Below the pieces are notes generated by a model. That model was not told the origin of the DNA and ran no database searches. It worked only from the letters and a program-made list of their open reading frames with translations. 34,827 bases of DNA from Bacillota bacterium (lineage in GTDB: Bacteria; Bacillota; DTU025). The stretch spans positions 1-34,827 of the forward strand of contig JAQVXE010000014.1 in NCBI GenBank assembly GCA_028709305.1, read 5' to 3'. Below, piece by piece: positions 22,000-28,737 of the stretch; positions within the stretch are counted from its first letter, which is position 1; every line of letters begins with the position of its first letter. The translations under genes and the position numbers were made by a program.

Positions 22000-23187
22000 T
22001 TGGAGAACATTGCATTCGCAGCTAGGATGCACGATCTCGGCGGTGATGTCGTTCGCAACATGTTTCTTCTCACCGAGAACCCGGACATCATCTCTTTTGC
22101 AGGGGGTATGCCTTCGCCGGACGCGCTGCCTGCAAAACAGCTCCGCGAAATAGCCGATGAATTGATACGAGATGCCGGCAAGCAGGTTCTGCAGTACGGA
22201 ACAATTGAGGGCTATCAACCACTCAGAGAATGGCTTGCAGACCATGTTGCCAAACAGGGCATAGAGACAACTCCTGAGCGGGTGCTTATCACCTCAGGAG
22301 CACAACAAGGCATCGATCTGGCGGCAAAGTGCTTTATGAACCCCGGGGACTGCGTATTGGTAGAGCGACCTACGTATCTTGCGGCACTCACAATATTCAA
22401 GACATACGAAGTGGAATTTGGCTGTGTGGATTCGGATGACTATGGGATAATCCCAGAGTCGTTCGAAGAGGCGATTGTGCGCCATAATGCGAAAATGCTG
22501 TATGTAGTTCCTACGTTCCAGAATCCAACTGGAGTTACGCTTCCCGCTGAACGTAGGAAGGCAGTTGCCGAGATTGCCGGCAAGCATGGCGTGATAGTGG
22601 TTGAGGATGACCCCTACGCCAAACTCAGATATGACGGAGAGCCGGTGCCGTCCATCGCAAGCTACGACAAGAACGATGTTGTCATATTCCTGGGAAGCTT
22701 CTCGAAATTCATATCTCCAGGACTTCGTGTAGGATATGCGGTGTCTGCTCCGAAGATCCATGAGAAACTGGCCGAAGGGAAACAGACCACTGACTTCCAT
22801 ACTTCAAACCTCTCGCAGCGGATGATATATGAGTTCTGTACTCGTGGGCATCTTGAACCGCATCTTAAGTCGATCCGCAAGGATTACATAATCAAACGCG
22901 ATGCGGCGCTCAAGGCTCTCGACAAGTACTTTCCTGAGGGGGCCCGGTGGACACATCCGCAGGGCGGCTTGTTTATCTGGGTTGTGCTTCCAGAGCACAT
23001 CGATACCAACGAATTGCTGCCGAAGGCAGCCGCCAAGAACGTGGCATACATACCCGGCGTACCGTTCTACGCAGATGGCGGTGGAAAGAACGCCTTGCGC
23101 CTCAACTTCAGCAATGCCAGCCTAGAGCAGCTTGATAGGGGAATCAAGAGCTTGGGAGAGGTCGTAGCCGAAGCAATGGGCGTGTAG
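22000..23187 (+). CDS. PLP-dependent aminotransferase (LysN / 2-aminoadipate transaminase-like)
   Basis: ISFAGGMPSPDALP, LITSGAQQGIDLAAKCF, PTFQNPTGVTLP, FLGSFSKFISPGLRVGY. Confidence 0.92.
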   Translation: MENIAFAARMHDLGGDVVRNMFLLTENPDIISFAGGMPSPDALPAKQLREIADELIRDAGKQVLQYGTIEGYQPLREWLADHVAKQGIETTPERVLITSGAQQGIDLAAKCFMNPGDCVLVERPTYLAALTIFKTYEVEFGCVDSDDYGIIPESFEEAIVRHNAKMLYVVPTFQNPTGVTLPAERRKAVAEIAGKHGVIVVEDDPYAKLRYDGEPVPSIASYDKNDVVIFLGSFSKFISPGLRVGYAVSAPKIHEKLAEGKQTTDFHTSNLSQRMIYEFCTRGHLEPHLKSIRKDYIIKRDAALKALDKYFPEGARWTHPQGGLFIWVVLPEHIDTNELLPKAAAKNVAYIPGVPFYADGGGKNALRLNFSNASLEQLDRGIKSLGEVVAEAMGV

Positions 23188-23225
23188 AGTGCTTGCATAG
23201 GGAAAACTAGATCTTGATGAGCTGT

Positions 23226-23268
23226 GGACCCGGATGCCCCCGCCGTCGGGCGGTATGTATCCGGGTCC
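23226..23268. repeat. Strong stem-loop upstream of the maltokinase-like gene
   Basis: GGACCCGGAT (23226-23235) / ATCCGGGTCC (23259-23268), with inner CCGCC/GGCGG; no T-tract. Confidence 0.65.
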
Positions 23269-23295
23269 TCTGCAGCCTTGCGGAGGTGTGTCGCC

Positions 23296-24909
23296 TTGGC
23301 CCAGTTCTCCCCGGAAGAAGCATACTCGGCGGTCAAACCGTCAACGTTGGCGGTGGAACGGTGGTTCCGCCACAAGCTCATGGACGTGACGGAGTTTGAA
23401 ATTGTGGACTATGCCCAGCTGGAATCGGGACGATCCAGTGGCGAATCCCTCGTCCTTGGGATTCTGCGTTTTGAGGGGGCGGGCGACTACTTCGTTCCTC
23501 TTGTGATAGAGGAGGATATCGATATCGAGGGCTTGAGGTCTGAAGGGTGCGCTTTGTCCGGTGCCGTGGCTCAACGTGCGAAAGCCTACGGCGTTGTTGA
23601 GGGCGAATGTGACGGGAAGAGGGCGATACTTCTCGATGGCGCATTCCATCCCAGATACATCAATACCGTCCTGGACCTAATAGAGTCAGATGCAATTGTT
23701 AGGGCTCGAAGAGGGCAATTCCGATTCAGGAAGGTGGGAGGCGTTCGTTCTGGGCAGGGCTGGAGGATAGAAGAAGTAGGAGATGCCTACACCAACAGCG
23801 TAGTTATTGCCGAGCGAAGAAGCGCCTTCAAGACATTTAGGCTGATGAGTCCGGGCATCAACCCTGATGTGGAGGTCGGAGTTCTACTCGCCACCATGAC
23901 CGACTTCTGTGAGACGGCACGGGTGCAAGGAGAAGTTTCGTATGTTGATTGTCGCGGTGTGGAATATTCTGTGGGAGTGCAAACCGAAGAAGTCCCTAAC
24001 ATAGGTGATGCTTGGGAGCTGGTTGGAGCTGCTCTCGAAAACCTGACGAGGTCTATCGTGGCCGGGCGAGGAGCAGGAGACATAGAATGCTCAAATGTTG
24101 ACCCAATATTGTCGAGTGACGCGTCGTGGCAGCTTGGCGCAACTGTTGGCCGGCTTCACCAGGCTCTGGCTTCCATCAAGGCCCCGGGCTTTGGCATACG
24201 GAAAGCGGGGGCCGGGGACGTAGAGCTGTGGCGCAGGAAAGCGAAGTCTCGCGCCGCGAGGGCGCTTTCCGATATCTGCCATGCCTTGGAGTGCGGTTCC
24301 TTGGATGGCAGCATAGATGCGACAGATGCAGCCAGGCTTGTTCTTGACAGGAAAGAGACGATACTGGCTGCAGTGGAAGGAGGATCGTGGGGACTGACGT
24401 CTGATCTGGATAAGATTGGGATGGTCATGCGGTGCCACGGAGATCTCCATCTTGGGCAGACTTTGGTAAGGCCGGATGGGTTCTATGCCATCCTCGACTT
24501 CGAGGGTGAACCTTTGGCTTCGGCAGAAGAGAGGCGTGCCCTCACAAGCCCTGCGCGTGATCTGGCATGTATGCTCAGATCCTACAGCTATGCGGCAAAT
24601 GCGGCTTTGATTAGCGGTCGGACTGGCCGTGAAGCAGAATACCCGGGCGAAGTGGAGAGCATCCTTGACGATTGGGAGAACTGCGCCAGGAAAGCATTTC
24701 TTGAGGGCTACTACCATGAGGTATCTCGTGGACGTGTGGATTTGGTTCCCAAGATGATTGATGCAAGAGACGCCCTTGTAGCCTATTTTGAACTGGAGAA
24801 AGCTTTGTATGAGGTGAGCTATGAGCTGAATAACAGGCCAGATTGGGTCATAATACCCCTCAAAGGAATCGCTAGAATAATAGGCAACTTGGGAGGTGGA
24901 CGGCTATGA
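23296..24909 (+). CDS. Maltokinase-like phosphotransferase
   Basis: N-terminal LAVERWFRHKLMDVTEFEIVD, C-terminal MRCHGDLHLGQTLVRPDGFYAILDFEGEP with PARDLACMLRSYSYAAN. TTG 23296 has SD GGAGGTG; the track start at 23224 lies in the stem-loop. Confidence 0.87.
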   Translation: MAQFSPEEAYSAVKPSTLAVERWFRHKLMDVTEFEIVDYAQLESGRSSGESLVLGILRFEGAGDYFVPLVIEEDIDIEGLRSEGCALSGAVAQRAKAYGVVEGECDGKRAILLDGAFHPRYINTVLDLIESDAIVRARRGQFRFRKVGGVRSGQGWRIEEVGDAYTNSVVIAERRSAFKTFRLMSPGINPDVEVGVLLATMTDFCETARVQGEVSYVDCRGVEYSVGVQTEEVPNIGDAWELVGAALENLTRSIVAGRGAGDIECSNVDPILSSDASWQLGATVGRLHQALASIKAPGFGIRKAGAGDVELWRRKAKSRAARALSDICHALECGSLDGSIDATDAARLVLDRKETILAAVEGGSWGLTSDLDKIGMVMRCHGDLHLGQTLVRPDGFYAILDFEGEPLASAEERRALTSPARDLACMLRSYSYAANAALISGRTGREAEYPGEVESILDDWENCARKAFLEGYYHEVSRGRVDLVPKMIDARDALVAYFELEKALYEVSYELNNRPDWVIIPLKGIARIIGNLGGGRL

Positions 24910-26072
24910 CCAGCATCAAGCCGCCAGGGGTTACCATAATGACGCGCGAGTTTCCGCCTAACATCTACGGCGGGGCAGGAGTTCATGTTGATTACCTTTC
25001 ATCGCGCCTTGCACGCCTCATGGATGTTGAGGTCAGATGCTTCGGAGAGAGACCGTATGAGGAAGATGCCTTTCCGGTTCTCAGCTACAGCCCATGGTTG
25101 GAGATGTCGAAAGGCTCTGATCTGAAGCTTCAGAAGGTGTTAGATCCGCTCTCTGTCGATCTGGCCATGGTTCGGGATCCGATTGAGACAGAGATAGTGC
25201 ATTGCCATACATGGTACACATTTTTTGCGGGATACCTTGGAAAGATGTTATATGAGACGAAACTCGTGACTACGGTCCATTCTCTCGAACCTCTGCGTCC
25301 TTGGAAAGAGGAGCAGCTGGGCTCGGGATATGCCGTTAGCTCATGGATGGAGAAAATCGGGATAGAAAATTCTGACCGCGTTATCGCAGTCTCAAAAGAG
25401 ATGCGCGAAGATGTGCTGGAACACTTCAACGTGGATCCGGACAAGGTTGTTGTTATACATAACGGGATTGACTTGGGCAGATACCGACGGATTGACGATG
25501 CAAGTGCATTATCACAATACGGAATAGAGAAACCATATGTGCTCTTTGTTGGGAGGATTTCGAGGCAGAAAGGGATCATGCACTTGCTGGACGCGGCTGA
25601 GATGATCAGGCCGGGCGTGAAAATCGTGCTCATTGCCGGAACTCCTGATACCAAGGAGATTGAAGAGAAGCTTGGCGAGCGTGTTGCCAGCCTCGACAAC
25701 GTCATTTGGATAAACCGGATGCTTCCGCGTGAGCATGTAATCCAGCTCTATAGCCATGCATCGGTATTTGCATGCCCGTCAGTCTACGAGCCTTTCGGCA
25801 TCATTAATCTTGAGGCTATGGCCTGCGAGATTCCTGTTGTGGCATCGGCGGTTGGCGGAATTCCTGAAGTAGTTATGGATGGTGAGACCGGGTTCCTTGT
25901 TCCACCGGCCGACCCTCACGAGCTTGCGTCGGCTATCAATCGCATACTCGACTCAGAGGAACTTGGTCGAAAGTTTGGGAGCGCGGGAAGGCTTCGTGTT
26001 GAGCGCTACTTCTCGTGGGAGGCAATCGCGGAGCAGACCAGGGACATGTACTTGGAGATGCTCGGCGGCTAG
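24906..26072 (+). CDS. GT4 glycosyltransferase, GlgM/actinobacterial-type glycogen synthase-like
   Basis: [90 protein letters not shown]. Confidence 0.92.
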
Positions 26073-26589: not shown

Positions 26590-27009
26590 TTTTCCCAACC
26601 CCATGATCGATGGTAACTCGGACGGCAGTTTGGTGGAAGCATCTAGTAGCACAGGAGATTGAGGGAGAAAAGTGCTATTTGTATTGATGGCCTGATCGCA
26701 TGGGGTATGCTATGGGCACTTTCAAACGGGCAAGTATCATGCCTAATATCACCCATGAGTAATAGGAGAGGGCGATTCACTGCTTTTTGGTCTTGTGATA
26801 GGATGAACATCGTGATGCAATCCCTAGTGCCGTGAATGTTTGCGTGTTAGGGCTTGGGTTGAGTCTAGAATCATCCGGCTGCCCGAGAGGGGGTGGTTGT
26901 CGGCAACGCACCAGGCGGAAGCTGGCTGAGGGGTCCCAATTGAGTGACCCGCTCCATGGAGCCATGCATATTCAGCAAGCTAGAAGCCTTGATGTGTTGC
27001 CAGGTTGCG

Positions 27010-27375
27010 ATGGACAAGATGGTAGATAAGTTGTCAACGCAGGTCCAGAATCTTGGCGAGAGAATATGCTTTGGCAGCCGTGACCAAAGGGCCGGAGCCT
27101 GCATTGAACTCCAAGACGTGGCGAACAACCTGGACATTGTGCTCAACGGGAGAAATGTTCCCTGGAACACACACAGGCGAGCGCGCAAGCTTCTTGTGGA
27201 GATCTCATACCTGGCTGACCTTGCACGGCGGCTTGAACATTCAGACATGCTTTCCAGCCTGAGGGCTGTGCTGAAGTCGGAAACCACTGATGATGGCTGG
27301 CAAGCCTACCTTGGGATTGAAGCTCTGTTCTACGACATGGCTTCTGGCATGAAGTCAGCAGTATACGACGTCTGA
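27010..27375 (+). CDS. Hypothetical helical protein
   Basis: ORF of 121 aa from ATG 27010; amphipathic helical character; no family recognised. Confidence 0.55.
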   Translation: MDKMVDKLSTQVQNLGERICFGSRDQRAGACIELQDVANNLDIVLNGRNVPWNTHRRARKLLVEISYLADLARRLEHSDMLSSLRAVLKSETTDDGWQAYLGIEALFYDMASGMKSAVYDV

Positions 27376-27462: not shown

Positions 27463-28536
27463 TCACCTGTTCAGGACCTCAAGTAGCTCGTATGTGACTG
27501 GACCCCCAGGCGCTGCTACTTGCACCGTGGATCCTGAGGGTTGCCCTATGATTGCGCGCCCAACCGGCGACTCGCTGGAAAGAAGGCCGTTTATGGCAGA
27601 CGCTTGTTCAGGCGGGACTATGAAGTACTCCATGTCCAACCCTAGTTCAACGTCGCGTATTCTCACGGTGGAACCGATCCTGGTTACGAGATCAGATTCG
27701 GTGTCCAGTCCTGCTGAGGCTGGGTAGAGGGTGGTAGCCAGCTTGGCTACGCCATGTGCGAGCTGCTCCGCCCCGGGGCCTGAAAAGAGCAGGCCCGCAT
27801 CAGACCCTTTTGAACGCTGGAAATTGGCTGTGGTCTCTAGTATTGCTTCGCAATTGCGTGAGGATATGGGAGTCGATCCCGAGCGGGCACGTGGAAGAGC
27901 AAGGTAGACGAAGATTCCACCTCCGCCATTTTCGTTGTGGCATACTGTCAGGGCCCGCATGATCTGGCGCCCTGTCTTTGCCATGTTGTCTGGGCCGATC
28001 GGAAGAAGGGGAAGCATCATGTAGTGCCTTGATTTCCTGACGATTCTGGCAGCTGCCTGAACTGCTGATTGATCGGCGAAGTTCACCACAAGGCCCACTT
28101 TTGCGGCTCCAGACCCTCCGGGAGGCAGATAGCTTTCTCCGACTATTGAGGCATGTGAGGCCTTAAATTGCAGTGTGACAAGGGTGCCGCCGAATAGGCG
28201 AATCAGGTGTCTGGCATAAGCGAGGCTGGCTCCTCGGCAAGGACTGGGGCCTGAAGCGGGAATGTCCACTCCATCGGCGAATCTGACTCGCACAAGCACA
28301 TCGACGGAAGATGGACCCTGTCTCGTTTCTGCACGTACTGGCTCTGTGCATGCAGAGAGAAACTGATTGCGCCAGTCACCTCTGCCAAATAGAAGGGTAG
28401 CTGGTACTTCGAGGCATCCGAGTTTCAGCTCGGAACAGGTTGACACATATCTTTGCATCCGTTCTCGAGGTGTTGAGCCTATAGGCGCACGCATGTCCTT
28501 GGGCGGCGAAGGCCTCCCTGAAAACCCGACTTTCAT
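27463..28536 (-). CDS. Unknown N-terminal domain fused to a GreA/GreB C-terminal domain
   Basis: C-terminus GSTVRIRDVELGLDMEYFIVPPEQASAINGLLSSESPVGRAIIGQPSGSTVQVAAPGGPVTYELLEV matches the GreA/GreB C-terminal pattern; N-terminal ~280 aa unassigned. SD AAAGGAGG gives best spacing to ATG 28536. Confidence 0.85.
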   Translation of the reverse strand: MKVGFSGRPSPPKDMRAPIGSTPRERMQRYVSTCSELKLGCLEVPATLLFGRGDWRNQFLSACTEPVRAETRQGPSSVDVLVRVRFADGVDIPASGPSPCRGASLAYARHLIRLFGGTLVTLQFKASHASIVGESYLPPGGSGAAKVGLVVNFADQSAVQAAARIVRKSRHYMMLPLLPIGPDNMAKTGRQIMRALTVCHNENGGGGIFVYLALPRARSGSTPISSRNCEAILETTANFQRSKGSDAGLLFSGPGAEQLAHGVAKLATTLYPASAGLDTESDLVTRIGSTVRIRDVELGLDMEYFIVPPEQASAINGLLSSESPVGRAIIGQPSGSTVQVAAPGGPVTYELLEVLNR

Positions 28537-28737
28537 TCCCATCGCCTCCTTTTAGGTAGAATGCCCAGATGAAGCAGGAAATAGTCACTTGAATTGCGCA
28601 ATTGTGCATCTGTTGTGCCTGCCGAAATATGGGCTTCACAAAGAGGCCATGAAAGCCGTTTGGGTCAGGCTCAAAGGAAAACGACGAAAAGAGTAGAAAA
28701 AAGCAGAAGGAGGATATTCACTGAGGAGGCTGGGTGG

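Follow-up and report, generated by a model that had tools for sequence, protein, structure and literature searches.

A gene on the minus strand of contig JAQVXE010000014.1 from a Bacillota bacterium (GTDB lineage DTU025), analyzed here as a window of 34,827 nucleotides, raises the question of what a GreA/GreB C-terminal domain does in a protein that otherwise does not resemble a Gre factor. An earlier note, made from the letters of the DNA, had suggested an enzyme or a regulator tethered to RNA polymerase (RNAP), with about 280 residues of a different fold, perhaps a xylose-isomerase-like TIM barrel, in front of the Gre domain. We place most weight, at a probability of roughly 0.5, on a protein that would dock at the RNAP secondary channel, carry a non-catalytic barrel in place of the Gre coiled coil, and compete with GreA.

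From its first ATG, the open reading frame spans 27463-28542 (minus strand, 359 amino acids). The second ATG (28536) is preferred as the start because the AGGAGG sequence lies 8 nt from it, as opposed to 2 nt from the first ATG at 28542, and because most orthologs begin there in the ortholog alignment; the coordinates 27463-28536 originally assigned to the gene are therefore correct. Comparison with an 84% identical ortholog gave a dN/dS of 0.23 for the N-terminal domain (N-domain) and 0.04 for the C-terminal domain (C-domain). Given these values and the presence of orthologs in two bacterial families, the open reading frame is a real protein under purifying selection and not a chance occurrence. 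G+C content is flat over the region around the gene. The features used below are as follows, with residues of the fusion protein counted throughout from the first ATG (28542):

27463..28536, minus strand: fusion gene, endonuclease IV-like barrel (predicted) plus GreA/GreB C-domain, 357 amino acids from the second ATG
28545..28550, minus strand: Shine-Dalgarno sequence AGGAGG, spaced 8 nt from the downstream ATG (28536)
27694..28536, minus strand: N-domain, residues 3-283, putative degenerate endonuclease IV-like TIM barrel with metal ligands lost (from profile comparisons and low-confidence models)
28405..28536, minus strand: residues 3-46, predicted to form the first beta-alpha-beta unit; its motifs VGFSGRP and LGCLEV are shared with endonuclease IV-like proteins
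27757..27798, minus strand: predicted last strand and start of the last helix, residues 249-262, GLLFSGPGAEQLA, matching the ESP..E.DA segment of endonuclease IV-like proteins
27475..27681, minus strand: GreA/GreB C-domain (PF01272), residues 288-356
27544..27579, minus strand: Gre binding loop, residues 322-333, SSESPVGRAIIG (from alignments; PMC7527559)

The C-domain is recognized directly by Pfam, as residues 288-356 match PF01272 (GreA_GreB) with 59.7 bits (E=2.8e-16, cut-off 26.9). The earlier note had read the last ~70 residues in this way and had made its proposal depend on a PF01272 match at the C-terminus, which is present above the cut-off. Solved structures of GreA, Gfh1, and Rnk also align with this stretch of the protein. 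The coiled coil with two acidic tip residues (PF03449, GreA_GreB_N) is absent from the fusion protein, as had been claimed; the sole PF03449 match in the whole genome is an ordinary GreA of 158 amino acids. Similarly, the best NCBIfam models, which are those for GreA, remain far under their cut-offs because the C-domain alone matches, and the full-length GreA model reaches 48.7 bits at best of the 145 needed.

In Gre factors, the C-domain attaches to the beta' rim helices of RNAP, and the S121P substitution in E. coli GreA leads to loss of RNAP binding (PMC7527559). In our alignment, S322 of the fusion protein occupies the position of S121, and S322, E324, S325, P326, and G333 of the binding loop are invariant in 9/9 fusions aligned, which span two classes. 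Invariant columns are about four times richer in the C-domain (50%) than in the N-domain (13%). Because the binding-loop residues are invariant, the C-domain is rich in invariant columns, and the S121P substitution has the effect described, we consider docking at the secondary channel likely and tethering of the protein to RNAP plausible. Coiled-coil residues also contribute to binding of E. coli GreA (PMC7527559), so the lone C-domain may bind RNAP weakly. In a tree of C-domains, every fusion falls on one side of a branch (support 81/87), a grouping that is weakened by the length of this branch.

Unlike the C-domain, the 283 residues at the N-terminus are not recognized by any model of Pfam or NCBIfam, and PDB profile searches with the N-domain returned nothing. 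The Pfam AP_endonuc_2 model (PF01261) has no match in the window protein and reaches 23.2 bits, against a cut-off of 31.1, in a distant member. Profile comparisons were then made between groups of proteins. The profile of the distant group aligned to that of 28 endonuclease IV-like proteins with an hhalign score of 80.6, as compared to 15.1 ± 2.8 for column shuffles (reached by 0/200), and with a probability of 97% (98% in global mode), so the N-domain of the distant members is firmly predicted to be an endonuclease IV-like barrel. The window group is connected to the distant group by a score of 33.1 (shuffles 14.5 ± 2.4, reached by 0/200), and a global-mode alignment of the two groups stays collinear across 264 columns (69% probability). 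Compared directly with the whole endonuclease IV-like set, the window group scores 17.2, which was reached by 30/200 shuffles and is not significant, and comparison with PF01261 proteins from the same genomes, including canonical endonuclease IV, yielded nothing. Against the nearest endonuclease IV-like subgroup, the window group scores 30.8 for the last strand (shuffles 14.4 ± 2.4, reached by 0/150) and 30.8 for the first beta-alpha-beta unit (shuffles 9.9 ± 2.1, reached by 0/150); both scores are optimistic, as the subgroup was chosen after the whole set had failed and the first segment was chosen after its motif had been seen.

The stretches MKVGFSGR and LGCLEVP, quoted in the earlier note as hints of a barrel, correspond to the predicted first two strands, for which the endonuclease IV-like match lies beyond every shuffle. 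Among 628 ORFs of the examined loci, the motif G-x-[AS]-G-x-P was found only in fusions, in endonuclease IV-like proteins, and in an antisense frame overlapping the fusion gene. AlphaFold models of the full-length protein and of the N-domain alone, with the window protein and its nearest relative as the only input, are of low confidence (pLDDT 40 and 48, respectively). They alternate strand and helix roughly like a (beta/alpha)8 barrel, which is no proof of the fold, and the hits of Foldseek searches with them included both TIM barrels and Rossmann-like folds, all with E above 0.001. The window N-domain is tied to endonuclease IV-like barrels by profile comparison, by two motifs in collinear positions, and by gene order, and it is very probably a xylose-isomerase-like, specifically an endonuclease IV-like, TIM barrel. 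The original hunch of such a barrel, offered as weak and speculative, is supported by the match of the distant members and by the link of the window N-domain to them. Canonical endonuclease IV is encoded by a separate gene in the window genome, and several Bacillota genomes (L082, L085-L092) have an endonuclease IV-like protein that stands alone and is distinct from this canonical one.

Fusion orthologs (38-84% identity) are present in 9/9 genomes sampled from two families of the window genome's order (G000-G007 and G008) and in 0/3 genomes of the order's third family; the G006 copy contains a run of unread bases (N). The N-domain is also found in both sampled genomes of another class of the phylum. 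G050 encodes a full fusion of 378 amino acids (PF01261, E=6.5e-5; PF01272, E=5.9e-19, 68.3 bits), while in G091, which has a sub-threshold PF01261 match, a contig edge cuts off the N-domain, and any C-domain would lie beyond it. The N-domain profile has no match in the other 388 of the 399 genomes sampled, all from this one phylum, and a protein combining the barrel with a Gre C-domain is rare among the bacteria sampled.

In both families, the fusion gene has a fixed neighborhood, being divergent from a run of AMIN-amidase, murI, (MBL), rph, and rdgB, and flanked on the other side by glgA, a maltokinase-like gene, and a MocR-like gene wherever the contig extends far enough. In the distant class (2/2 genomes), it shares a contig with, and diverges from, a run of gltX, amidase, rph, and rdgB; this gene order, common to both classes, supports the orthology of near and distant members. 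In the order's third family, the MocR-like gene is followed directly by amidase, rph, and rdgB, and the fusion gene and glgA are missing. Within the window, the MocR-like aminotransferase-type, putative maltokinase-like, and glycogen-synthase-type glgA genes form a block (22000-26072, plus strand) that is kept in the two families; at this place, the third family has neither glgA nor the maltokinase-like gene. An XRE-type HTH gene (PF01381; 26254-26652, minus strand) accompanies the fusion gene in most loci and, in L028 and L029, lies ~80-100 bp downstream on the same strand, where the two may form an operon. Additionally, a 143-aa ORF (26944-27375, plus strand), which no family matches significantly, has conserved counterparts (32-73% identity) next to the fusion gene in L003, L025, L030, and L031.

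Whether the barrel could be an enzyme was addressed with eight positions (His, Asp, and Glu) that we take, by analogy with endonuclease IV, to bind metal. None of the eight varies among the 28 endonuclease IV-like proteins, 2/8 are kept in G050 (the Glu of strands 5 and 8), and 0/8 are kept in the window protein, where every position is replaced or falls in an alignment gap, although single positions are uncertain since the mapping runs through the G050 intermediate and some are gapped. In the GLLFSGPGAEQLA segment (residues 249-262), for example, the metal-binding Glu of endonuclease IV-like proteins is replaced by Ser. The overall loss of metal ligands in the window's branch appears clear from the alignments. 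An enzyme that is still active while tethered to RNAP, using new catalytic residues, would find some support in the two ligand positions retained in the distant branch and in the invariance of barrel strand-end residues and the C43/C65 pair in the window's branch, but is very unlikely because the family's metal-binding positions appear to be lost there. "Enzyme" in the original enzyme-or-regulator guess is therefore not supported, and "regulator" would be its better half. A related alternative would keep the barrel as a nucleic acid grip without catalysis, with the Gre dock bringing it to stalled or backtracked polymerase as a repair or surveillance factor, for example to hold the extruded RNA 3' end or to mark a lesion. 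The nearest relatives of the barrel are endonuclease IV-like proteins, and a few N-domain residues (GxSGRP, C43, E45, R58, Q60, C65, and T66) are invariant, which may represent a binding site or just the core. However, the predicted ligand face and strand ends of the barrel show no significant excess of conservation (p=0.16), no nucleic-acid-binding residue was identified in it, and the neighborhood of the fusion gene displays no link to repair genes; we regard such a factor as quite unlikely.

According to the reading that we favor, docking by a non-catalytic barrel protein, the N-domain very probably descends from an endonuclease IV-like (xylose-isomerase-like) TIM barrel and appears to have lost its metal site. 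The C-domain would sit where the secondary channel opens, on the beta' rim helices, and this dock would hold the bulky, non-cutting barrel at the channel mouth. With no tip reaching the active center, the protein could not stimulate cleavage as Gre does, and it would instead be a competitor or plug that displaces GreA, serving as an anti-Gre or channel-gating regulator, as proposed for Rnk. It is unlikely that the C-domain now serves as an FKBP-like protein-protein module and has given up RNAP binding, with the barrel acting elsewhere: the long branch separating the fusion C-domains from GreA and the lack of a coiled coil to support binding are consistent with this, but the residues of the Gre binding loop do not vary among the fusions aligned from the two classes, and the PF01272 scores remain high, at 59.7 and 68.3 bits. 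A counter-invader defense function is extremely improbable and was rejected as the main reading. Its precedent is the conflict systems combining GreA/B-C, TPR, and PIN, in which the Gre C-domain is fused to unrelated domains, mostly as standalone genes (PMC8195603), and the present protein similarly carries this domain on an unrelated one. In contrast to those systems, it has a single architecture at one fixed chromosomal locus and lacks TPR, PIN, and effector domains (Pfam matches neither TPR nor PIN in the window protein or the G050 fusion). It also matches no PADLOC model and nothing in plasmids, phages, or viral contigs, and its one conserved chromosomal place with flat G+C is unlike that of mobile, patchy defense genes.

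Similar to GreA and GreB, the fusion has a C-terminal FKBP-like domain (PF01272) with a conserved binding loop, but it has a ~280-residue barrel-like domain instead of the coiled coil (PF03449) and acidic cleavage tip. With Rnk and Gfh1 it shares a Gre-type C-domain and an N-terminus predicted to be unable to stimulate cleavage, making it a candidate GreA competitor; however, both possess a coiled coil, short in Rnk and full in Gfh1, and neither has a barrel. The order of motifs is that of endonuclease IV-like barrels (PF01261), with G-x-[AS]-G-x-P in strand 1, LGLxCMExx in strand 2, and an ESPxxExDA-like motif in strand 8, whereas the apparent lack of metal ligands and the joined Gre C-domain are not. 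To our knowledge, the bacterial secondary-channel factors described so far consist of a globular dock and a coiled coil or helix reaching into the channel. Fusions of the Gre C-domain are known, and its combination with the barrel was not found described: the openly licensed literature yielded no description of the architecture, and PADLOC, NCBIfam, and Pfam contain no named family for it; the already characterized family that the earlier note had considered it might turn out to be did not appear in these sources.

A conserved chromosomal barrel protein with a Gre dock would show that the dock is a reusable RNAP-targeting module in ordinary cellular proteins, and its reuse would then extend beyond the proposed conflict systems. 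The fusion would also provide a small case for studying recruitment by the dock alone and the effect of a bulky, non-cutting domain at the channel mouth. We suggest only tentatively that a pseudoenzyme repair-type barrel on a Gre dock could form a ligand- or nucleic-acid-responsive gate of the secondary channel that operates without a coiled coil; if true, this would be a new way for proteins to use the channel. The PF01272 survey of the 399 genomes produced at least about 150 matches, and further Gre fusions are possible beyond the matches listed. Among those listed is a GreA C-domain match in a 389-aa open frame (G190:C1:976715-976933), which may be another fusion or merely an open stretch upstream of an ordinary GreA.
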